The translations under genes were made by a program, and so were the position numbers. From contig CP048716.1 in assembly GCA_022641835.1 (NCBI GenBank), forward strand, positions 1,736,001 through 1,800,000: a DNA stretch of 64,000 bases, in the 5' to 3' direction. The stretch comes from Petasospora fabianii. Taxonomy: Eukaryota; Ascomycota; Saccharomycetes; Phaffomycetales; Wickerhamomycetaceae. Below the pieces are notes generated by a model. It was not told where the DNA came from. It did no database searches and saw nothing but the letters and a program-made list of their open reading frames with translations. Position 1 is the stretch's first letter, and each line of letters opens with the position of its first letter. Shown here in pieces: positions 21,007 to 61,271 of this stretch.

Positions 21007-21984
21007 TTACATTACCGTGCAATTGTGCTTTCTCTTATGGAACGATGTTCTCCTTTTTGAATCTAATTTACTCTTCGACTCGTCACGATTGATCCTTGAC
21101 CCACCTTCATTATGTATGGTGTTACATCTTGTCTTATCAATACCTAGCAGCACTGGTAACTGCTTGAACGGAGACGGCTGTATATGTGGCTCATTTATCA
21201 TCAGCAGCATCAGCTCGAACACCCTCGAGTAACTTCTTGGACTGTTAAAGAAGCACTCAAAATACTTACACCCGAGCTTCGTCGCTGACTTCTGCAAGAA
21301 GTCAACGTTTGGTAAATCCTTCCCATAATCTTTATCCAATCTCACTTCTCCACCAAGTCCTAATAATATTCTATTCGCCCAAGGGCAATGCTCCTCCACC
21401 TCAGGAATCCATCTATCTTTGACGTTGTGAAATGATTCAGGAGTCGCCAAATCGAAACAAATGATAATACCAGCGGCATTAGCATATGCTAAGGGCCTGA
21501 ATCGGTCGAAATCGTGTGAACCGGGGAAATCCCAAATCTGGAGATCCACTGTTGTGTCGTTGTTGAAGTTAATGGATTTGTCGTATGTCTCAAACATGAA
21601 AAAAGTCGGTGCCCTGGTGAATCGTTGATTCATATAGCTGAGAATGAGAGTTGATTTTCCACATTTTGAATCACCGAGAAGAACAACGTTCGACGGTTTG
21701 GACAATGTTATGGCGTTTCTTTTGGTCGGTGATGGCGTCCGAGTTTGAGTCTGGAAGGCTTGTGGTGTTCCTCGCAATGGACGAACTGGACTCTGCCCCG
21801 TCTGGCCAGTAGGTGTCTTGTACTGAATGTGGTGCTGCCTTGGGGGCGAGTTTGTTGAATGGTGATTAGTTATGGTCCGGAGTGGCGTGTGAGCCTGGGA
21901 ATAGATCCTCTTGCGGTATTGACTTCGGAGAACGGGAGAAGCCTCACAGGCGTTCTCGTCGTTAAATTTGTAATCGTGATTCAT
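21007..21984 (-). CDS. Atypical, probably GTPase-deficient Rho-like protein
   Basis: A 325-residue Ras-superfamily protein closest to Rho. A basic, disordered N-terminus of about 90 residues precedes the G domain. The P-loop GDSKCGKS is intact, and switch I has the invariant Thr (FMFETYDKS). Switch II reads DFPGSHDFDRFRPLAY, so the residue equal to Ras Gln61 is Ser rather than Gln. The NKxD/TKxD base motif is not recognisable (GLGGEVRLDKD), and ECSAK is replaced by ECFFN. The C-terminus is polybasic and ends in CaaX CTVM (Met, farnesyl type). This resembles the Rnd style of constitutively GTP-bound Rho proteins. Candida Crl1 is a possible relative, by recollection only. Confidence 0.85.
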   Translation of the reverse strand: MNHDYKFNDENACEASPVLRSQYRKRIYSQAHTPLRTITNHHSTNSPPRQHHIQYKTPTGQTGQSPVRPLRGTPQAFQTQTRTPSPTKRNAITLSKPSNVVLLGDSKCGKSTLILSYMNQRFTRAPTFFMFETYDKSINFNNDTTVDLQIWDFPGSHDFDRFRPLAYANAAGIIICFDLATPESFHNVKDRWIPEVEEHCPWANRILLGLGGEVRLDKDYGKDLPNVDFLQKSATKLGCKYFECFFNSPRSYSRVFELMLLMINEPHIQPSPFKQLPVLLGIDKTRCNTIHNEGGSRINRDESKSKLDSKRRTSFHKRKHNCTVM

Positions 21985-34373: not shown

Positions 34374-35966
34374 TTAGAAGTTGATTGGCTTGTCGAAAGT
34401 GGACAAGGCAGCCTCCTTGAAGGCCTCGGAAAGGGTTGGGTGAGCGTGACAGACTCTAGCAATGTCTTCAGTAGAAGCACCATACTCGAGAGCCAAACCA
34501 GCCTCACCAATCATCTCACCAGCGTTTGGACCAATGATGTGAACACCGAGAACTCTCTCAGTCTCGGCATCAGCGAGGAACTTGACGAAACCCTCAGTGT
34601 CCATGTTGGTCTTAGCTCTAGAGTTGGCAATGAATGGGAACTTACCAACCTTGTAGTTGATACCAGCCTCCTTCAACTGCTGCTCGGTCTGACCAACCCA
34701 GGCAACCTCTGGGTGAGAGTACATAACAGATGGGATGTTGCCATAGTTGACGTGACCGTGACCATGCTTGATGTACTCAACGGCGGCGATACCTTCCTCT
34801 TCAGCCTTGTGGGCAAGCATAGGACCAAACGTGACATCACCAATGACTCTGATGTGTGGGTGCTTAGTTCTGAATTGGTCATCAATGACGAGACGACCTC
34901 TCTTGTCAACCTCCAAACCGAGCTGCTCAGCGTTCAAACCTTCAATGTATGGTCTACGACCGATGGCCACGAGGAGGACATCAGCCTCGATGGTCTCCTT
35001 CTTGCCATCCTTGACGGATTCAACATCAACCTTAACGATGTCACCATTTCTCTCACCAGAAATAACCTTGGTTCCGAGCTTGAACTTGAAACCCTGCTTC
35101 TGGAGGAACTTCTGGGTAGCCTTAGCAACCTCGTTATCCATAGAGGCACCAATAGCATCCTGGAACTCAATAATTGTGACTTCAGAACCGAGTCTGGAGT
35201 AGACGGAACCCATCTCCAAACCAATGATACCACCACCAATGATGGCCAATCTCTTTGGGATCTCCTTGAGGGAAAGGGCACCAGTGGAGGAGACAATTCT
35301 CTCCTCATCAATGGTAATACCTGGGAATGGAGTCACCTCGGAACCGGTGGCAACGATGATGTGGTCAGCCTGAACAGTGGCGTCTTCACCGCCCTCAATG
35401 GCCTTGACGGCAACGGTCTTCTCATCAACAAAGGAACCGTTACCCTTGTAGTAAGTGACACCGTTCTTCTTGAACAACATCTCGATACCACCAGTGAGCT
35501 GGTTCACGGCGGTGTCCTTGGCCTTTTGGAAGTTGGCAATGTTGAGCTTAACGTCACCAACGTCGATACCTCTCTTGACGGTATCGGACTTGATCTGGTG
35601 GTAAAGGTGGGAGTTGTTAAGGAGGGCCTTGGATGGGATACAACCAACGTTCAAACATGTACCACCGAGCTTACCTCTCTTCTCGATACAGGCGGTGTCG
35701 TAACCGAGCTGAGCAGCCTTGATGGCGGCAACGTAACCACCTGGACCACCACCGATGACGACAACGTCGTGCTTCTCTGTTTGATGTTGTTAGTAATTTG
35801 TAATCTTGTAATTTCTATTTCGTTCCATCAGACCACGAACTAGGTGGGGCAGGCTGGGTGGCAGGGCGGAAGGATACTTACTGGCAGCAGCATCGGCAAG
35901 TGTACGGACGGCTGTGAGGTTGTGGCCGAATTTGGTGAAGGCTCTGGTGTTTGTGAATCTGAGCAT
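34374..35966 (-). CDS. LPD1: Dihydrolipoamide dehydrogenase (E3), spliced
   Basis: A 495-residue mitochondrial flavoprotein, the shared E3 of pyruvate and 2-oxoglutarate dehydrogenases and the glycine system. Exons are 35882-35966 and 34374-35776. The intron 35777-35881 (105 bases) has donor GTAAGT, branch TTACTAAC and acceptor AAACAG. Exon 1 encodes a 28-residue presequence ([20 protein letters not shown] and so on). Exon 2 opens [18 protein letters not shown] (FAD site), then redox-active Cys69/Cys74 ([13 protein letters not shown]), the NAD site [34 protein letters not shown], and the catalytic His-Glu in [10 protein letters not shown]. Length is near the yeast 499. Codon bias is extreme, which also explains the long antisense open frame over it. 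Confidence 0.98.
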
Positions 35967-41631: not shown

Positions 41632-42923
41632 ATGGCTGACTCAGGCACACTTCTCAATCAGCCGATTGTCATTGATAACGTATGGTGTTTTTTGCTCTCT
41701 TTCTAATATAGCATTTTTGATCACTAACTCTCCATTCAGGGATCAGGCATCATCAAAGCCGGGTTTGCTGGTGAAGAGAAGCCCAAACACTATGCCCCAG
41801 CTATGTAGGTTGACAAGACATGACGCATCCACTACAAAATCATATACTAACAGCTATTCATAGGCTTGGCTGGCCCAAGTACCAGAAGGTTATGGCAGGA
41901 GCCCTAGAAGGCGATGTCTTTATCGGTCAACGCGCAGCAGAAAACCGTGGACTTCTGCGTCTTCGATACCCCATGGCACATGGTGTTGTTGAGCACTGGG
42001 ATGACATGGAAGCCCTATGGGGGTCTGTTCTTCAAAAAGAACTTAGGACCACGTGTGAGGACCACCCGGTGCTCCTGACTGAAGCTCCGCTAAATCCTAA
42101 AAGGAATAGGGAGAGATGTGCACAGGTCTTCTTTGAGACGTTTGGGTGTCCAGCTCTATATATTGGTATTCAAGCTGTACTGTCGCTGTATGCTAGTGGG
42201 CGTACTACAGGGCTTGTGCTTGATTCAGGAGACGGAGTAACACATGCCGTCCCAGTGTATGATGGATTTAGTCTGCCCTCGGCAATTAAGAGAATCGATG
42301 TTGCAGGAAGGGATGTTACGGAGCAGTTACAGTTGTTGTTAAGAAAGCAAGGCGTTTTGCTTGATACTAGTGCTGAGAAGGAAGTTGTACGTTTAATCAA
42401 GGAGAAGACATGTTACGTGTCCCTTGATCCTTCGAAAGATGAAAGAGATTGGCATACCTACTCTTTGGATTTTGAGAACTCACAAGGAACCACCGATGGC
42501 GGTAAAACGATGAGTTACAAGTTACCCGATGGTAAAGTAATTGATGTTGGAGCTGAGAGATTTAGAGCCCCAGAAGTGCTATTCAGACCTGAAATCATTG
42601 GAAGTGAAGCAGATGGTGTCTCACAGTTGGTCCACCAAGCCATACAACGTGTTGACATGGATCTCCGAAGCTCATTACAACAGAGTGTGGTTCTTTCAGG
42701 TGGTTCGACCCTATACAGAGGATTTGGTGACAGATTGTTAAGCGAACTGCGTGGGTTGGCTCCACAGGGTACGAAGATCAAGATTTACGCTCCTCCAGAG
42801 AGAAAGTACAGTACGTGGATCGGAGGTTCAATCTTGGCTGGTCTTAGTACTTTTAAAAGGATGTGGGTATCAAGATCGGAATGGGATGAGAACCCAGATC
42901 TTATTCAGACCAAGTGTTTGTGA
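41632..42923 (+). CDS. ARP1: Actin-related protein Arp1 (centractin), three exons
   Basis: A 390-residue actin-fold protein that forms the dynactin minifilament used by dynein in nuclear positioning. Exons are 41632-41679, 41740-41804 and 41864-42923. Intron 1 (60 bases) has donor GTATGG, branch CACTAAC and acceptor TTCAG. Intron 2 (59 bases) has donor GTAGGT, branch TACTAAC and acceptor CATAG. The spliced start is [19 protein letters not shown], continuing [20 protein letters not shown]. Downstream are the centractin motif [14 protein letters not shown], the actin motifs [24 protein letters not shown] and [35 protein letters not shown], and [20 protein letters not shown]. Human Arp1 has 376 residues, the yeast protein 384. 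It is convergent with FUR1 as in S. cerevisiae. Confidence 0.96.
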
Positions 42924-47083: not shown

Positions 47084-47770
47084 ATGAGTTTTCGAGGAGG
47101 AAGAGGCGGCGGAGCCAGTGGATTTCAGAGAAACCTCCCATTTGGCCTCGATTACCAGGACGTCAACAAGCCCCAAGAAACAGAAAAACCAACATTACTA
47201 TTACCTGTGAATGGACCACTGACTGATAAGGAGAAAGTTGCAGCCTCTCATTACATCAGCTTTCAAAATACGCTGCGAGATGGTCCGTTCTTCACTGGTG
47301 ATTCGCTAGATGTGGAGGATGTTAAGTCGAAACTGGAGATCTCGGAGGATGGTATTAATGATGGGTTAAAAAGATACTCTGATCGATACTTAAAGAAAAG
47401 AAAAATTGGACCATCGATAGACGATCATCCTTACAAAATCGAATTTTTCCCGCAGGAGTTGTACAAAGTGATGGGTGTCGATGATAAGAAGAAAAAGAAA
47501 CTATTAGCCATTTCTCAGGTGACGAACTCCAAGGATGTGTTGTTGAAGCTTGAGAATGATGACTTGGCGCACAGCATTGCTGAGAAACTGAAAAATGTTG
47601 CTGATGATGATGATGAGAAGGAGGAGGAGCCAAAAGAACCTGTTGAGGAAAACTGGGATGATGAGTTTGAAGATGAAGATGATGATGACGACTACAATGC
47701 CGAAAAGTACTTCGATGATGGTGAAGAATTCGGTGATGAGGACGATTACAACGACGAAGCTGCCTTCTAA
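47084..47770 (+). CDS. RPC31: RNA polymerase III subunit C31
   Basis: A 228-residue subunit of the Pol III-specific C82-C34-C31 initiation module. The Gly-rich start MSFRGGRGGGASGFQRNLPF is followed by GLDYQDV, LPVNGPLT, the highly conserved RYSDRYLKKRKIGPSIDDHP, ELYKVMGV and KKLLAIS. The tail is very acidic and ends DDDYNAEKYFDDGEEF and then NDEAAF, the same end as S. cerevisiae Rpc31 (251 residues). The ATG at 47084 gives a start equivalent to that of the yeast protein. Confidence 0.96.
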   Translation: MSFRGGRGGGASGFQRNLPFGLDYQDVNKPQETEKPTLLLPVNGPLTDKEKVAASHYISFQNTLRDGPFFTGDSLDVEDVKSKLEISEDGINDGLKRYSDRYLKKRKIGPSIDDHPYKIEFFPQELYKVMGVDDKKKKKLLAISQVTNSKDVLLKLENDDLAHSIAEKLKNVADDDDEKEEEPKEPVEENWDDEFEDEDDDDDYNAEKYFDDGEEFGDEDDYNDEAAF

Positions 47771-47911: not shown

Positions 47912-49354
47912 TCACTTTTTTGGTGGAGTCGGAGGTAGTGAGCTCTTGAATCGCGTTGGAGACATCCTAGATCTTCCGCCACTTGACCCCATAGGTCCCG
48001 CAGATCCTGTCGAGCTTCCAGCATTGCTCACAAATACCTCATACGGAGTTGGTGCATTGTGACTTGGTAGCAATACATCTGAAGCATCACGAGTGTGCAG
48101 GCTTTCTCCAAATTTCTCTGGAGAGTGGTGTCTCGTTGGAGTTGTGCTCGATGCAGATATGGTGTTAGCGTCATATGGAATGCTTGACAGGTCGAGACGT
48201 TTTGGTGAGGAGCTCCCAGATTTGTAGAATCCTGTTGGTGGCTTTCTTGTTGGACTGCGAGCTGAACGACTGGAGTTGCTATGTTGAGGCTCGATAATGC
48301 TGTATATCGTTTCCGAGAGAGTTGGTTGCTCCTTGCGTGGTGGGGCCAATGATGTGTACGAGCTTGAAGAACTCTTCAGTGAACCGACACTGTGTGATGG
48401 TACGGGTGGTGGTGTTGGTCTTGCACGGCCATGACGCTGTGCTGGACCATTGTAGTTCAATTGGACCTCTCTTTCCAGTTCATCAAAAGCATTTGAGGAA
48501 GAGACGCGGTCGTGTGACTCTGCCAATGACGCTGAGTCGTATGAAGCAAGATCTGGGAACTCTCTCAATGGTGGTGTGCTGCGCTGTGGTGACGAAGCCG
48601 ATGTTCTTGGTTCCTCAGTCGCTTTATGTTGGTGTGGTATGTCTGGGAGGGTGTGGACAGACATCTGAGAAATGTTCATGGACTGATGGAACAGTTGTTG
48701 TTGAGAAGGGTGCGTCGGTGGGCTCGCCAGAGGAGGTGATGATGCCCTCGTGGCGCCGGTATTGCGGGGTAGTGGTGGTGGGATTGCATATGGATCAGCG
48801 GCAATGACAGCCTCTTGTTGTTCTTGTCCTGGAATCGGTGGTAGTTGTCTCCTTCTAGAAGCAGCGGACATATTGGACCCTGCCGATGAGCCCATCGACG
48901 AACCTATCGACGAGCCCATCTTTCTCCCAGATGAGGAGAAAGTTGTGCTCGATGATGCTGGGTAGAAAGTCATCTCCAAATAGATTTCACCGGCTTCTCG
49001 TCCATCACCAGACGTCAATGTGTGCCATTTATCATAGCCATCCTTAACTGACGCGTAAAATGCCGGGGTCACATCAACCTCTGCCTCTGCGATGAGCGTC
49101 GGCGCCTTCTTCGTTTCATCCAACACAGATAACTTCAAGACTGGTGTTATCTCTGGTGACATGTGAAATCTAAACTCCTGGTCCCAGCGAGGGACCTGGC
49201 CACCTCTTAGATCGGCTTTGGTCTTGTCTGTAAGATTGGCGATGCGTAGTAGGCAGTATGGATTCTGTTTCTCGAGCTTACGCTTGTTCGGCAGCGCACG
49301 GGCTCGGGCCACAATGACAATCAGCGTTCCTGTGTTTCCTCTGAACTGCGACAT
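47912..49354 (-). CDS. INN1: Inn1-like C2-domain cytokinesis protein
   Basis: A 480-residue protein with an N-terminal C2 domain (about 8-132: GTLIVIVARARALPNKRKLE, KQNPYCLLRIANLTDKT, WDQEFRFHMSPEI, LKLSVLDETKKAPTLIAEAE, GEIYLEMTFYP) and a long disordered Ser/Pro-rich tail with several PxxP motifs (RQLPPIPGQ, RPTPPPVPS, PPLREFP). In S. cerevisiae the Inn1 C2 domain activates Chs2 at the division site and its PxxP motifs bind the SH3 domains of Hof1 and Cyk3. The calcium-binding aspartates are not fully present, as in Inn1. Neighbour order (RPC31 next door, convergent) equals S. cerevisiae. CHS2 lies 2 kb away here. Confidence 0.88.
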   Translation of the reverse strand: MSQFRGNTGTLIVIVARARALPNKRKLEKQNPYCLLRIANLTDKTKADLRGGQVPRWDQEFRFHMSPEITPVLKLSVLDETKKAPTLIAEAEVDVTPAFYASVKDGYDKWHTLTSGDGREAGEIYLEMTFYPASSSTTFSSSGRKMGSSIGSSMGSSAGSNMSAASRRRQLPPIPGQEQQEAVIAADPYAIPPPLPRNTGATRASSPPLASPPTHPSQQQLFHQSMNISQMSVHTLPDIPHQHKATEEPRTSASSPQRSTPPLREFPDLASYDSASLAESHDRVSSSNAFDELEREVQLNYNGPAQRHGRARPTPPPVPSHSVGSLKSSSSSYTSLAPPRKEQPTLSETIYSIIEPQHSNSSRSARSPTRKPPTGFYKSGSSSPKRLDLSSIPYDANTISASSTTPTRHHSPEKFGESLHTRDASDVLLPSHNAPTPYEVFVSNAGSSTGSAGPMGSSGGRSRMSPTRFKSSLPPTPPKK

Positions 49355-49599
49355 CTCTAAGGGTCTATCAAAATTTAAAAGGAAAATACTAAAGAGTACC
49401 GGTATTCAGAAGAAATCTCGAAACTTTGTTTGTGCCCAAAAGTAAACAAAAACAGTGCCGAGGCGCGAAATCCGATGCTCGTGAATTTCATACAGAGGTC
49501 AGGTGACCTCGCTTGAATGATAATGGTATGTAGCCAATAAATATGTGATATCTACTTTGATATACTTGAAAAGTCTTTGATATGGCTAATTTATTACTT

Positions 49600-50982
49600 T
49601 TATAGGCCACCCACCAGTTTCACAGTGCGGAAGTACTCGATGTAGTCCCTCTTGTTGAGCACGAAGAATTCCTCGGGTCTCATTCCAACGGGGATCTTTG
49701 GCGGCAGTACAGGTGGTGCATTCGTAGGAACAGAGTCTCTCAAACATCCTCTCTTCCAAGTACCGTCACCGTTATACATTGAGACTCCTTCATCAACTTC
49801 GAAATCCCTACGTGTAACTAGTCCCTTCTCCAAACGATCAACGAGTGCATACATCTCCGGTGACACAGGGACGTAGTTGGTCTTGAAATCTTCTTCCTTC
49901 TTTCTAGCGTGTTCCTTACGCATAAGCTGAAGTTGCTGCTCTGATGAAAGCTTGGATGTTCCAATAGATGATGCGGAGAATGGAACGTTGCTGAGGTCGA
50001 GATCATCAGCCTTGAGTGGTTCATCCAGTGTCAGAGATGAGAGGTCGACGCCTGATCTGCTGAAAGTTGTATTGGCGCTAGACTCTGAAGTTGCCGAGTT
50101 TTCCCTCGAATTATGTGTATGACTTTTCAGTGGTGGTGGTGGTGGAGGAGGCAACGGGTACCTTTGGGCCTGTGCTCTGGTAGGTGATTGTTCAGCGGGC
50201 TTCAGCGGACTTTGTAAACCTCGGTCTTCTATGCGGACATGAGGCTCCTCGAACACCGTTGCTGAGGACGGAAGATTCGGTAGCGTCTTTTCCTTCGGTG
50301 ACTCATTCATTTCATTTATAAGCATATCACGACTTGTCCTTCTTTTGTGAATAGAGTCATAATGGCTTGCAACGGACTCTTTGTATCTTCTTTGGACCCT
50401 TCGAGCAAGGTCTCTCAACCGTCCTCTCGCCTCCTTGGCATCATCCTCGAAAACCCTGTCAACTGAGCTTATTAGCTTGTCGGTATTTGTTTCCTTCTTC
50501 TGTACAGCTGCCGTGGCCGGTGACTGCGGGGGTACCGTGTGGCTCGTCTGCTTCCTTTGAACCCTCTTCTTGGCAGGTAACAATGGCTGCAGCTCGTAAA
50601 ACGTGAGCTCCACATTCACCTGACCAAGAGGGGAGAGTTTGATCCAGCGATCAGATTCCTTTTGATAAAACGCATCGATCAAATTGATCTCACCTTTGGC
50701 GAGACACATGGGGAGACCCTGGCTTCTGCCCTGCATTGCGTAAACTTCTAACACAGGTGGTGCCTCTGGCTTGATGTCAAAGCGGCATTGTGACTCCTCT
50801 GTCCATTTCAAGGGCAAAGAGCCAGAAGTAGTGGTGCCAGCTCGTGTTCTTTGAACGTTTGTAGCAATCTGAAAGAGAAGATATACACCGTTAGCACCGT
50901 CCTGGTTGGTGATGTAGCGGAGACCCCTGGCCTCTATCGCATCAACAACGAGGAGTCCTCTAGCTGCGGATGAGATTGACAT
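49600..50982 (-). CDS. Second C2-domain protein with PxxP tail
   Basis: A 460-residue protein with the same plan as its neighbour INN1. A divergent N-terminal C2-like domain covers about 7-133 (GLLVVDAIEARGLRYITNQD, LLFQIATNVQRT, RFDIKPEAPPVLEVYAMQG, GEINLIDAFYQ, VNVELTFYE). A basic stretch (KKRVQRKQTSH) and a disordered region with PLPPPPPPPLKSH follow. It ends in PPVLPPKIPVGMRPEEFFVL, then a short conserved-looking acidic/aromatic end (NKRDYIEYFRTVKLVGGL). I know no clear named orthologue. The head-to-tail position between INN1 and CHS2 and the shared layout suggest an old paralogue of INN1 acting in septation. That is inference. Confidence 0.82.
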   Translation of the reverse strand: MSISSAARGLLVVDAIEARGLRYITNQDGANGVYLLFQIATNVQRTRAGTTTSGSLPLKWTEESQCRFDIKPEAPPVLEVYAMQGRSQGLPMCLAKGEINLIDAFYQKESDRWIKLSPLGQVNVELTFYELQPLLPAKKRVQRKQTSHTVPPQSPATAAVQKKETNTDKLISSVDRVFEDDAKEARGRLRDLARRVQRRYKESVASHYDSIHKRRTSRDMLINEMNESPKEKTLPNLPSSATVFEEPHVRIEDRGLQSPLKPAEQSPTRAQAQRYPLPPPPPPPLKSHTHNSRENSATSESSANTTFSRSGVDLSSLTLDEPLKADDLDLSNVPFSASSIGTSKLSSEQQLQLMRKEHARKKEEDFKTNYVPVSPEMYALVDRLEKGLVTRRDFEVDEGVSMYNGDGTWKRGCLRDSVPTNAPPVLPPKIPVGMRPEEFFVLNKRDYIEYFRTVKLVGGL

Positions 50983-51301
50983 ATGACAGAAAACTCAAGA
51001 CAAAAAGTGATCCAGTGTGCTATATCGAAGACACTAAGGGGTCCACTGCTTCCTGCGGGCACCGGGCTTTTTATCGTTGCTCAGCGCTGTTTGGTAAACA
51101 TTGTCTGCTGCGCCTACATCACGCACTTAACCTCGATCTGGGGTTGCAGGTTGGGGCTCGCGATGTCGGCTCAGCCACCGAGAGGACCTTCATTCTACCG
51201 GGTGCTCACAAGACACTGTGGCTATAATTGTCATATATCATGGTCATATTAGTTACTGTACATAAATTTAAGCGTCAGTGCGGGGTAGGGGTATCTATAA
51301 A
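50983..51301. other. Intergenic region between the C2 gene and CHS2
   Basis: 319 bases between the upstream side of the second C2 gene and the CHS2 stop, both on the minus strand. Short overlapping open frames (50970-51252) show no similarity. No other signal was identified. Confidence 0.4.
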
Positions 51302-54300
51302 TCATTTCTGACGCGAGAACATCTTCTTGAACGAGAACTTGGACTTGATGTCCCTGCGGGAGCCATCATCCATCTTTTGTCTCATCTCCATAATCGAACG
51401 GGCACATTTGACACAAAGGAACGACAACGAACCTATCACTCTGAACAGGGCCAACGCAGCAACAGACCAGAGGATAAAGGCCAAATATTTGTTCTTGTAG
51501 GCATCCTCTGGGTCGTACACCTGGATAATACTCATGATAAGGATCATGTTGGTGATCAACCACGTCAACACAACTCTCGTTCTCACATCTCTGTAGTAGT
51601 CATCATCTGGAATTGGCTGCTTTGGCTGCTTCTCTGGGTTCTTGTTTCTGACTCTCTGAATAGAGATGTTGTTCAGCACACCTTGGTATGAACTTTCAAT
51701 GTCCACCTGATCAACAGGGTCCTCAACAACCTCAACGATCTCATGACCGTGACTGTCCTTCTTGATGATGGCACTACCCAAGCTTTTGGCTGGGTTGTTA
51801 TCACCCTTGGTACCCCATGAAACATCGTGGGTGTTGCAGAACGCAAAGATCTGTAATGTGATGGTGTAAGAAGGCAAGAGGAGGAAGTACTGAACTGAAC
51901 ATGTGAGGATGTGCCATGGGTCCAGGTACATAATGGAGATGAAAGCATACAACCCATAAGTGGAGAGCAATGAGACAATGATGTTGAAGAATGCCCTGTT
52001 ACTTCCATCCTCACCCCCGCTATGAGCATTTACAGTGTGCCCAATGGAAATGAAACCAAGAGTAACGGAGAAGACTGCAACAATAGCAAGCAATGCCATG
52101 GATGTCATAAAGAGGTACTGAGCACCATGAGGACGGTTACCCATGGAGATGATGAAAGTCGAGCAAATGGTTCCGAGGCAGATGTAGTTGAAGATGGTAA
52201 AAAGCCAGAAGCCACCATTGTGTGGGACCAAGGAAGAGCCAATAAGGGAACCAGCCAAGTAGTAGAAGGTCAAATAATAGTTAGCAACCGAGAACCAGTT
52301 GAAAAGCAATGTCACAGACTGGTACAAGAACTCAATGTGGAAGAAAAACTTTCTAGTCCAACTGTGACTAGTTTGCCAAATCTGTCTGAAATGCAGCTGT
52401 GCGTAGAATGCAGCGAATAAGGCACCATTCAACCATCTTCTTCTCTGAGCAATGAACTCCGCAACATTTTCAGGCAAATCAGTCTCACCCTTGGCGTCTT
52501 GGACGTATTTCAACAACCACTTGGAGTTCTTCTTGGCGACCAGCTCCCAACAGAGAATTCTGTCTTCAGCCAAGTACATGTTTGCAGAGAAGACGTCTCT
52601 ATTTGGACCCTCATTGATAGACTCACCCTTAAAGTAAGAGTTCAATGGTCCCGTACCATCTTCATGGTTCAGTAAAGCTTTATATCTGTATGCAGACAAG
52701 GCACCTGGTAAGACAGATATATAACCAAAGGAAGACTCCAAAGGCTTATCCAAAATATTGGACATCTTATACTCAAAGTTTTGAGAAGCCACCAATGGAT
52801 TTAGTAGTTTGTATCCCAGCTTACCTTTCAAAGCTTTGATCTCACCAGCAGCACCAGCGACATTGGAGTCCCTATCGAAGGCCTTCCACAAGTGATAGAT
52901 ACAACCAAGATTTGGCTTAGTACCGACATCCAACAAGACAACAACATTTGGTTCCAAGATTGGACAAATGGCTTCGAACAACCATCTGTGAGAGTTGATC
53001 TTCTTTTGGTTCTTCTCCTTCAGCAAGAACAAAATCTGCACTGGCACCAATCCAGATTCGGAAGAGTTGATCTCGAGATCCTGGTTCAGAGAGATCTGAG
53101 TGGTGTACTCGAACACATGAGATTTAACCTCCTTGTTGTTAACGAACGATTTGGCAATTCCCTCCTGGTAAACACCCATCACGGACAAGACGTCAAGGAC
53201 ATTTTGATTGATCTTGGCACGACCATCGGAAACGATACACACCTGAACCTTCTTCCAGCCGTCTGGACCCCACATTCTGGACTTCTTTCTCTTACACAGC
53301 ATTGCAATGTTTTGCATGACAGAATGCATGGTTCTGGTGAAGTCGATCTCATTCTCGTTGTACATGGTGATACAGATACAGATCTCAATCTCTCTGTTAT
53401 ACTTTGCTGCCCTCAAGGTGAATCCAGCAGACTCAAACTCGTGTGGCTCTGAGGTACAAGCCGAGTATCTCATAAACAAGAACTCATCCTCATCACGTCT
53501 TGGAAGGATGGATGCCAACTTGGTTGGGACGGGATTCTCCAACACCAAGTTACCGTTCTCTGGAACGAATTTCTTTCTAATCATGGACTTGTGACGACGT
53601 GGTTGAGCAGTCTCTGGAACCTCGTAGGCCATGTTGTCACCGAATACATCATCATCCTCATAGTAACTGTCAAAGGTGTCGCCACTGTATGCAGAGGCAT
53701 GTTGTTCTAGCTTTTCGTTGAAGGCCTTGTCATCATCAGAGCTTCCAGAGAAGACAGTAGATCCAGACGAGAGTCGTCCTTGGTCAAGTCTTGGAATGGT
53801 TTCTGGTTGCATAGTGTGAGCATGGTTGGCAGCGGCAAATGTGCTGGCGGAGAAGATTGGCTTTGGTGGTGGGAGAATACGGGAGGAGCTGGCAGTGGAG
53901 TTAGACATTCTCGTGGAAGAACGTTCAATGCTATAAGCACCAGATCTGGCGAAGCCTCTGTTGTCTTCGTATTCATCTTCATCGTCAATGACAATCACAG
54001 TGCTTTGCTTCTTTCTCTTTGGTGATTCCAGTTCGGTCCACTGTTTTCTTGGTGTGTCGGCAGCAAAGGCTGGTGACATCACAGCTGGCTTCTCTGGAGA
54101 ACCGTATGGGGTATGAAATTCATCGTAATTGGATGGCTGGTACTGCTGCTGCTGTGGTCTTCTGTTGAACACACTTGGAGAGTACCTGGTGTCAGCTGGC
54201 TCCTGTGCTGGGAAGGCATTGAAGTTGGAGGCACCGCTCTGGAAACTACGGGATGAATCTGTCGTGCGAGCCGGTTGTGGTCTTGACGGTTGATGGCCGT

Positions 54301-54337
54301 ACTTGTTATCGTACTCGTCGTCAAATGGGTTAGACAT
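51302..54337 (-). CDS. CHS2: Chitin synthase, Chs2 type
   Basis: A 1,011-residue plasma-membrane family-2 glycosyltransferase that makes the chitin primary septum. A disordered N-terminus of about 270 residues is rich in Ser, with several S/T-P sites of the kind Cdk1 uses to hold Chs2 in the ER. The catalytic region shows [62 protein letters not shown] and the product-binding QRRRWLNG, followed by about six or seven spans. It is divergent from SCO1, as CHS2/SCO1 are in S. cerevisiae, which favours CHS2 over CHS1. Yeast Chs2 has 963 residues. Confidence 0.95.
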
Positions 54338-54673
54338 TGACGAAAGTAGCGAGCCGATATCAGTTGAAACTCTTTCTGACTTGGTGAAGATGAAGAAGAT
54401 GACAAGCTAACCCAACTCTTGTATTTTCTGAGATTTGTTTTGTATATTCAAAGCCGATCTGCACGATTTGTTTACCTTTTGCCGAATTCGGTTAAGTAAG
54501 TGAATTGGTTAGAGCACACGCTAACGGAGAATTGAGCTTCCTGATCGGGTGGTTTCTGGTTATTTTCGCGAATTATCTTGATGCTTCTGCCATCGGCCTC
54601 TGCTTTTCAGAGCATCTGATCAGACCTCCTGCTTAGTAGTCTATCTCTCAGTTCAGCTAACGCACCGTCCAAT
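54338..54673. promoter_or_regulatory. CHS2/SCO1 divergent promoter
   Basis: 336 bases shared by two divergent genes. No strong TATA box was seen. The same gene pair shares a divergent promoter in S. cerevisiae, so the linkage is old. Confidence 0.5.
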
Positions 54674-55564
54674 ATGCTCAGACTCTTACCAAGAAGGGCA
54701 CTTACAGTTAGACCTTCCTTTGTGACGCCTTTAATGGCTCAAAAGAGGCTTCTTTCATCCTCATTTGTCAGATTTAATAAGACGAAGCCAGAGGCATCAT
54801 CCTCAGAGGCACCAAAGAAGAAGCCACTTTCTAGAATACCAATCGGTGGCTCATCTACACAGCACCAGAAGCTCAACACAAACGTGAATGTTGAGTTTGC
54901 CAGCTGGAAGGCTGCCGCACTGATGATCATCGTTGGTGGTGGTCTCTGGTTCTTCTTTACTAGGGAGAAGAAGAGAATACAGGTGCAGCAAGAAGCCGAG
55001 CAAAACAGAGGTTATGGTAAACCACTTGTCGGTGGTCCATTCTCTTTGATTGATACTGAAGGTAACGAATTCACTGAACAAGACTTGAAGGGCCAGTTCT
55101 CCATCATCTACTTTGGATTCACTCACTGTCCTGACATTTGCCCAGATGAGCTTGACAAGCTTGGCGCTTGGTTGGATCAGTTTAAGCGTGAGGGATACAA
55201 AGTCAAGCCAGTATTCATCACCTGTGACCCAGCTAGGGACACACCAGCCGTCATTAAGGAATATTTGACTGATTTCCACCCAGATATTATCGGTTTGACT
55301 GGTACTTATGAACAAGTGAAGAACGCATGTAAGCAGTACAGAGTGTACTTCTCCACACCAAAGGATGTCAAGCCAGGTCAGGATTACTTGGTCGACCACT
55401 CGATTTTCTTCTACCTCATGGACTCTGATGGTGAGTTCGTTGATGCTTTGGGTAGAAACTACGACAATGAGACTGGCCCACTCAGAATCAAGGAGCAGAT
55501 TGACACATTTATTCCTAAGGCTGAACGTGAAAAGAAGAAGCAGGGTGGTTGGTCTCTCTGGTGA
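54674..55564 (+). CDS. SCO1: Sco1 copper chaperone of cytochrome c oxidase
   Basis: A 296-residue mitochondrial inner-membrane protein that delivers copper to the CuA site of Cox2. A basic presequence covers about residues 1-35; one span lies at about 79-96 (KAAALMIIVGGGLWFFF). The thioredoxin-like domain faces the intermembrane space. Copper ligands are Cys152 and Cys156 in HCPDICPDEL and His242 in DYLVDHSIFF. Length equals typical yeast Sco1 (295). It is convergent with OLA1. Confidence 0.97.
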   Translation: MLRLLPRRALTVRPSFVTPLMAQKRLLSSSFVRFNKTKPEASSSEAPKKKPLSRIPIGGSSTQHQKLNTNVNVEFASWKAAALMIIVGGGLWFFFTREKKRIQVQQEAEQNRGYGKPLVGGPFSLIDTEGNEFTEQDLKGQFSIIYFGFTHCPDICPDELDKLGAWLDQFKREGYKVKPVFITCDPARDTPAVIKEYLTDFHPDIIGLTGTYEQVKNACKQYRVYFSTPKDVKPGQDYLVDHSIFFYLMDSDGEFVDALGRNYDNETGPLRIKEQIDTFIPKAEREKKKQGGWSLW

Positions 55565-60239: not shown

Positions 60240-61271
60240 TTAAAACCTCATCGAGTATCTCTTACGGTTCCCTGTACCTGGGGTACCTGCCTGTGAACCA
60301 CTCCATGAGAATTGTACAGAGTTTCGTCTCGATCCATATGCTGAACCCACATGTTCCCCATATGGTTGTACATGACTATATTCCTCCATTGTCTCATTGT
60401 AGGAGTGATTTGGATTGTAACTTCGCTGCATTGTAGGTGAGACATACATCGATGTAGGACGAGAGGATCTTTGGGAGAAAGAGCGACCACCGTGGGACAT
60501 CGCTGATGGTTGTGGTGATTCAGCGCCTCGTGTGTTGCTTGAGAATGAACGCGGTAATGGGGTGTTTATAACTTGTAAGCCATGACGCTTGTTACCTGTT
60601 ACGGATGGGGAGCCTCCAATGTTATCCGCAAATCTGGATGGCTTTCTTTCATAGTCACGATAGTGAGTATTTCCCGCTGGGAAGGATGGAAGCTTCGGAG
60701 AACTGAATAATGGTGAGCGAAGAGACTCACGCGATGATCGATGTTGAAGATCATTCACTGGAATGTTCCTCATCCGATTCATTCCAGGTGTCGAAGATCT
60801 TGATGTGGTAGCTGTCTGTTGAGACATGAGCGACCTGCGACGGTATTCTTGATGATCTGATCGATGAAGCTGGGGTTGTAGCGATCTCATCTCACTATCA
60901 CCATCGGAATACTCTGTAGAGTCCTCGCTGCTGATATTTGCCGTTTCATCAATCCGTGTGAAGCCTTCTTCCATCCTTGTAACATCTTCTTCACTCATTA
61001 TCAGGGCAGCAAGAGATGCTACAAGCTCTTGCATCTTGGAGTAAAGAGAGATTGATGATGAGTCGATGAGTGAGGTTGACCCCGGAGCACTGTCTCTATT
61101 CAAAGGGGCCTGGATAAGATCAAATGTCGCTGTGAGCATTTCTTGAAAAGATTCCTTTTGTCTGGATGTCAGCTGAGAGTTTTGAAGAAGCTCATGGAGC
61201 TCTTCTTCCATGGAGAGCAGCTCCATCGAGCGTTGTAATGATGAAGGTACACGATCCTGGGAATGAGACAT
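60240..61271 (-). CDS. Unrecognised Ser/Arg-rich protein
   Basis: A 343-residue protein I do not recognise; the frame opens upstream only from TTG, so ATG 61271 is used. Residues 1-110 are helical and acidic (SMELLSMEEELHELLQNSQL, SKMQELVASLAALIMSEEDV). The rest is disordered, basic and rich in Ser/Arg, with many short SP and RxxS sites. Two fit the PKA consensus RRxS: RRRSLM and SRRNSVQF. A PKA catalytic subunit is the next gene upstream. The layout suggests a phosphorylated adaptor, for example at the bud cortex, but no family is claimed. A role as PKA substrate is inference only. Confidence 0.7.
   Translation of the reverse strand: MSHSQDRVPSSLQRSMELLSMEEELHELLQNSQLTSRQKESFQEMLTATFDLIQAPLNRDSAPGSTSLIDSSSISLYSKMQELVASLAALIMSEEDVTRMEEGFTRIDETANISSEDSTEYSDGDSEMRSLQPQLHRSDHQEYRRRSLMSQQTATTSRSSTPGMNRMRNIPVNDLQHRSSRESLRSPLFSSPKLPSFPAGNTHYRDYERKPSRFADNIGGSPSVTGNKRHGLQVINTPLPRSFSSNTRGAESPQPSAMSHGGRSFSQRSSRPTSMYVSPTMQRSYNPNHSYNETMEEYSHVQPYGEHVGSAYGSRRNSVQFSWSGSQAGTPGTGNRKRYSMRF

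Follow-up and report, generated by a model that had tools for sequence, protein, structure and literature searches.

A probable septation locus of Petasospora fabianii

The window considered here is a stretch of 64,000 nucleotides from the yeast Petasospora fabianii (contig CP048716.1, positions 1,736,001 to 1,800,000), and our subject is a group of three complete open reading frames (ORFs) in it, called A, B, and CHS, which lie head-to-tail on the minus strand by their coordinates. From sequence comparisons and neighbouring genes, we treat gene A as INN1 and CHS as most probably CHS2, while gene B, which lies between them, most likely arose as a tandem paralogue of INN1 long ago. A first-pass annotation had described INN1, a second C2 gene, and CHS2 in a row on one strand, with INN1 and CHS2 within 2 kb of one another, and the coordinates agree, with 1,947 bp from A to CHS (Table 1). 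The intergenic gaps are 245 bp between A and B, 319 bp between B and CHS, and 336 bp between CHS and SCO1. Each of the three ORFs starts with ATG and has in-frame stops within 150 bases upstream. The coding score is positive solely in the gene's own frame for both A (0.028 per codon, barely above zero) and B (0.113 per codon).

Table 1. Features of the locus, with positions in the window
Feature	Position	Strand	Description and evidence
Gene A	47912-49354	-	480 aa; INN1/Fic1-type; N-terminal C2 and a tail with PxxP motifs and full cyclin-dependent kinase (CDK) sites
Gene B	49600-50982	-	460 aa; read as a divergent INN1 paralogue; BLASTP to A, fold of the two-row model
C2-type domain of B, residues 1-131	50590-50982	-	alignments, model, Foldseek
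CHS, chitin synthase	51302-54337	-	1011 aa; read as CHS2 orthologue; Pfam, PDB matches, divergent SCO1
RPC31, RNA polymerase III subunit	47084-47770	+	Pfam RNA_pol_3_Rpc31 5.2e-53; convergent with A
SCO1	54674-55564	+	Pfam SCO1-SenC 4.4e-50; divergent from CHS
Forkhead-like GTAAACA upstream of A	49442-49448	+	weak
Forkhead-like GTAAACA upstream of B	51094-51100	+	weak
Forkhead-like GTAAACA between CHS and SCO1	54469-54475	-	weak

A C2-type domain in gene B

Homology to A is the main evidence for the C2-type domain at the start of gene B. Residues 9-129 of B align with residues 9-131 of A by BLASTP at 4e-11, with 39 of 132 columns identical (30%). Smith-Waterman alignment of the two regions gives a score of 115, which none of 2000 shuffles reaches; the shuffled scores average 26.2 (standard deviation 4.5, maximum 53). 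A provisional Inn1 sequence, not drawn from a database, scores 203 with the C2 region of A and 84 with that of B, each above all 2000 shuffles; given its provisional nature, these scores serve as a lead and not as proof. The second C2 protein proposed in the first-pass annotation is thus borne out by homology, although the domain is invisible to the standard profile. Pfam C2 was not found in B at E values up to 10, even when the search was confined to residues 1-140, and the sole Pfam entry for B is eIF2A at 0.14, under the cut-off of that family. In a PDB sequence search with B, none of the 177635 sequences matched at E<=10.

Structure prediction points to the same domain. With A supplied as a second row, the AlphaFold2 model of B has eight strands, a predicted local distance difference test score (pLDDT) of 68.1, and a predicted template modelling score (pTM) of 0.64. 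Foldseek with this model found 1022 PDB matches at E<=10, of which 46 have E<=0.001. The best match is a C2 domain (E 1.5e-05), and the first two TM-scores by query are 0.57 and 0.64. The best 50 of the 1022 matches are named C2 domains or proteins, among those listed, that we take to be C2 carriers, with many repeats of one protein. Since A helped to make the model, the fold is supported but not independently proven. The C2 fold suggested for the second protein appears in the predicted structure, and nothing was found that would assign B to a family known for some other function.

Gene A as the probable INN1

Gene A carries a recognizable C2 domain (Pfam C2 at 2.9e-12, residues 8-112 of a 479-aa query). 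A PDB sequence search with A gave 11 sequences at E<=1, the best at 3.5e-05, and by name or presumption all 11 are C2-bearing proteins. The eight PxxP starts of A are all in its tail, which also has seven full CDK sites (S/T-P-x-K/R), against an expectation of 1.27; none of 5000 shuffles reaches seven. No such excess is seen for minimal S/T-P sites (12 versus 12.8 expected). In S. cerevisiae the contact between Inn1 and Cyk3 is inhibited by Cdk1 and relieved by Cdc14 (PMC11433125; this and the other papers are cited from excerpts), and the seven full sites in the tail fit an Inn1 under Cdk1/Cdc14 control. Together with the C2 domain, the RPC31 neighbour, and the match to the provisional Inn1, these sites are the grounds on which A is taken as INN1. 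A K. phaffii production strain has been made with INN1 deleted (PMC11184742), which indicates that the gene is dispensable there.

The tail of gene B and whole-gene duplication

Genes A and B had been described as sharing one plan, and this holds: the C2 domain comes first and a proline-rich PxxP tail follows, with 8 PxxP starts in A and 13 in B. Twelve of the 13 in B are in the tail, five of them in one polyproline run. The best ungapped segment between the two tails, an AQR...PPP...SH stretch ending at residue 335 of A and 302 of B, scores 72, more than any of 1500 global or 1500 local shuffles (maximum 69 in both). Downstream of this stretch, both proteins have an LDLS-(S/N)-(I/V)-P-(Y/F) motif. 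A loose LDLS-type pattern, composed after the motif had been noticed, has three matches in all when the six frames of the window are searched, one in A and two in B.

A control of 60 comparisons, in which the two tails were set against 30 other proteins of the window, gave one strong match, between the B tail and an RRM protein at z 7.2, and tail homology was downgraded as proof of duplication after this result. Scored likewise without gaps, the C2 regions of A and B reach only z 4.6, as their alignment needs gaps. Tempered by the RRM control, the collinear tail matches make a duplication of the whole gene the likely, but not proven, origin of B. The homology of the C2 regions supports the earlier suggestion that B is an INN1 paralogue; the further suggestion, that B may be specialised for the same synthase, is a possibility.

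The B tail has two full CDK sites where 0.78 are expected (P 0.18). With no clear excess of these sites, B may be less subject to CDK control than A is.

By eye, the last ~95 residues of B (YVPVSPEMYALVDRLEKG ... PPKIPVGMRPEEFF) look like an ordered motif and not like plain tail. No Pfam family matched the last 105 residues at E up to 10.

The chitin synthase gene and gene order

CHS matches Pfam Chitin_synth_1 at 5.2e-76 and Chitin_synth_1N at 7.7e-23. Among solved chitin synthases, it matches 7stl with 642.7 bits and 7xs6 with 595.6 bits, two enzymes whose species and class are presumed. The class comparison consists of these two, with no class II sequence among them. In one aligned stretch, 7stl and 7xs6 share 116 of 174 columns, and CHS shares 112 of 180 with the first and 93 of 174 with the second. 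Columns common to the solved pair but not to CHS number 31, against 26 for CHS and 7stl only and 8 for CHS and 7xs6 only. These counts place CHS outside the pair, and with the divergent SCO1 beside it CHS2 appears to be the best name. The first 250 residues of CHS contain three full CDK sites where 0.48 are expected (P 0.012). They resemble the CDK-regulated N-terminal domain of S. cerevisiae Chs2 (PMC4758748), a protein that carries four Cdk1 sites (PMC2876151).

The order in the window is RPC31, A, B, CHS, and SCO1, where RPC31 converges on A and SCO1 diverges from CHS. In S. cerevisiae, we take YNL151C to be RPC31, convergent with INN1 (YNL152W), and YBR037C to be SCO1, divergent from CHS2 (YBR038W). 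By these systematic numbers, INN1 is presumably on chromosome XIV and CHS2 on chromosome II. The window, then, keeps both S. cerevisiae pairs in the same relative orientation, as far as these gene names hold, and joins them with B between. Published tables list YBR038W under contractile ring and bud neck and YBR037C under mitochondrion and copper (PMC2396181), and YNL151C is found in predicted RNA polymerase complexes (PMC5646790). The locus upstream of YNL152W in S. cerevisiae is GIM3 (PMC13228207), not B. A search of open-licence PMC papers found none that gives both YNL152W and the name INN1. Relatives of CHS and B were absent from a virus collection and relatives of CHS and A from a prokaryote collection, which, for collections of viruses and prokaryotes, says nothing about conservation in fungi.

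Loop residues and Chs2 activation

A and B differ in loop 1. In two of three alignments, K24, R25, K26, and K29 of A stand opposite I24, T25, N26, and G29 of B. The BLASTP alignment places its gaps otherwise, so that R25 of A is opposite R22 of B and K29 is opposite N26. Whichever alignment is used, residues 23-43 of B, which make up loop 1, contain zero Lys or Arg. In loop 3, LDETKK of A is opposite MQGRSQG of B, which has no acidic residue. Position K29 of A is taken to be that of K31 in Inn1, again from the provisional Inn1 sequence. The latter shares this one lysine with A and not K24, R25, or K26. Judged by the rules that hold for C2 domains, A and B both look unable to bind calcium in the usual way. 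This agrees with the reported inability of the Inn1 C2 domain to bind phospholipids (PMC3475658).

That the C2 domain of Inn1 activates Chs2 in S. cerevisiae, as the first-pass annotation had assumed, has backing in the literature: the domain is in direct contact with Chs2 and increases the activity of the synthase (PMC4758748). The K31A change in S. cerevisiae Inn1 disrupts the function of the C2 domain and keeps Chs2 binding (PMC4758748). If K29 of A is the counterpart of K31, B would be a natural form without that lysine, and B may not activate Chs2 should contact between them exist.

Upstream regions and shared timing

The upstream regions of A, B, and CHS have one GTAAACA each (Table 1). 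The probability that all three regions contain the motif is 0.04 if regions are simply counted and 0.005 if their lengths are taken into account. The CLB2 cluster of S. cerevisiae is driven by Forkhead factors (PMC2876151), and the Forkhead-like sites are a weak indication that A, B, and CHS2 could be expressed at a common time. The Mcm1-type pattern CCYWWWNNRG has no match in the three regions bar one at 49597, on the edge of the A-B gap. Elsewhere in the window, a Ser-rich ORF with no Pfam match (60240-61271, minus strand) has two copies of GTAAACA upstream; the other 11 motif-bearing regions, among 33 examined, have one each.

Other features of the window

The window has long, intron-free, yeast-like ORFs, a G+C content of 46%, and the standard code. 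Non-standard decoding of CUG was considered and rejected. In a check by eye of 4 of the 11 CTG codons of CHS, using the alignments to two PDB chitin synthases, codons 439, 599, 648, and 805 align with hydrophobic residues or Cys and never with Ser, which fits the standard code. ARAGORN with bacterial settings gave no match in the window, and neither did Rfam at its gathering threshold.

Three further ORFs deserve mention. A divergent Ras/Rho-like GTPase (21007-21984, minus strand; Pfam Ras 3.1e-25) has an N-terminal extension of ~95 residues and, by eye, is without an [NT]KxD motif and ends in a CAAX-like CTVM. A pyridine-nucleotide-disulphide oxidoreductase (34374-35480, minus strand), which presumably resembles dihydrolipoamide dehydrogenase, matches its Pfam profile only from position 70, so a 5' exon and an intron, or a break, are likely. 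An actin-related protein (41820-42923, plus strand) matches the Pfam Actin profile from position 36, and a short 5' exon is probably missing.

Possible roles of gene B

The reading preferred here, at a probability of roughly 0.45, is that B acts at the septum as an Inn1 paralogue whose C2 domain does not activate, and that it is predicted to be a partner in the complex of Chs2, Cyk3, and Hof1. INN1 would have been duplicated in tandem long ago, leaving B between INN1 (A) and CHS2, and the expression of B might roughly coincide with that of A and CHS2, for which the upstream motifs are a slight hint. Its proline-rich motifs could bring it to the division site by binding SH3 proteins of the Hof1 and Cyk3 kind. 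Lacking the loop 1 lysine and acidic residues in loop 3, the C2 domain of B would most likely bind rather than activate, holding or tuning Chs2 through protein contacts without switching it on. Gene A would keep the activating role, as the behaviour of the K31A form of S. cerevisiae Inn1 suggests.

Several observations weigh against this reading. The AlphaFold2 model of B alone had a pLDDT of 38.4 and was discarded, and the model that was used depends on A as its second row. The equivalence of K29 and K31 depends on the provisional Inn1 sequence. The A-B tail match (z 6.3) is lower than that between the B tail and the RRM protein, and so is not unique, and B is without the excess of full CDK sites found in A. 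The GTAAACA motif was chosen after the sequence had been read and occurs in 12 of the 33 upstream regions of the window; with looser Forkhead motifs, the probabilities rise to 0.10-0.12 by region count and 0.015-0.021 with lengths. Neighbouring yeast genes, moreover, need not share a function.

The main rival, which we consider the less probable of the two but a serious possibility, is that B is a septal INN1 paralogue that works independently of Chs2, having taken over part of the scaffold role of the family, for example in polarity, ring disassembly, or work on the pore or secondary septum. Relatives offer precedents. S. pombe Fic1 promotes septation independently of Chs2 (PMC10184318), its function is carried by the C terminus and not by the C2 domain (PMC3475658), and the long C terminus of Aspergillus SppA is needed for septum formation and plugging (PMC10023807). 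A C2 domain that drifted past the Pfam profile while the PxxP tail was kept also fits such a role. Set against it, B directly adjoins the synthase gene, but this is an argument from position only.

It is unlikely that B drifted to a new role outside cytokinesis and lies where it does by chance after duplication. The large divergence (30% identity in the C2 region) and the lack of a clear CDK-site excess would fit, and C2 domains serve many functions. B is, however, an ORF with a coding score in its own frame that has kept the plan of a C2 domain and a proline-rich tail, and the described Inn1, Fic1, and SppA members act at septa or the division site (PMC10023807, PMC10184318, PMC3475658, PMC11433125).

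A bolder reading is unlikely when all its parts are taken together. Here B would be a dedicated Chs2 partner whose C2 domain is the natural equivalent of K31A, a built-in brake or timer of primary septum synthesis that attaches to the synthase but does not activate it, and that competes with Inn1 or staggers its action. An ancestral RPC31-INN1-B-CHS2-SCO1 cluster would then have been broken up in S. cerevisiae, with the brake lost and inhibition through the Inn1 tail kept.

Least probable is that the S. cerevisiae INN1 gene has its true orthologue in B, with A as a Fic1-like copy lost there: RPC31 synteny is ambiguous, since losing A would put B beside RPC31, and the C2 domains of Inn1 and Fic1 have very low identity (PMC3475658), but the provisional Inn1 scores higher with the C2 region of A than with that of B (203 versus 84) and the seven full CDK sites in the A tail fit an Inn1 under Cdk1/Cdc14 control (PMC11433125).

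Comparison with known systems

Neither a second Inn1-like C2 protein nor linkage of INN1 with CHS2 is named among the matches listed from the open-licence PMC literature, as far as the excerpts go, and a table in PMC11433125 has one INN1 row. If B has the same fold with a changed loop 1 beside the synthase gene, it would lend itself directly to telling the binding surface of the C2 domain from the activating one. The cluster would also suggest that genes for parts of a yeast septum complex once lay side by side.

Aspergillus oryzae SppA belongs to the same broad orthologous group as Inn1 and Fic1, and its N-terminal C2 domain is needed at the septum (PMC10023807). It differs in its size of 912 aa and long tail, and the excerpted text of that paper makes no mention of a second paralogue beside a chitin synthase (PMC10023807). 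S. pombe Fic1 has the plan of C2 domain and PxxP motifs but is shorter, with residues 127-272 as its C-terminal part (PMC3475658), and works without Chs2 (PMC10184318). Another close system is S. cerevisiae Inn1 of the ingression progression complex, which A resembles in its N-terminal C2 domain, PxxP tail, full CDK sites, and RPC31 neighbour. B resembles Inn1 in its predicted C2-type fold and PxxP tail; unlike Inn1, it has neither the loop 1 lysine nor the Pfam C2 signature, and it adjoins the synthase gene.

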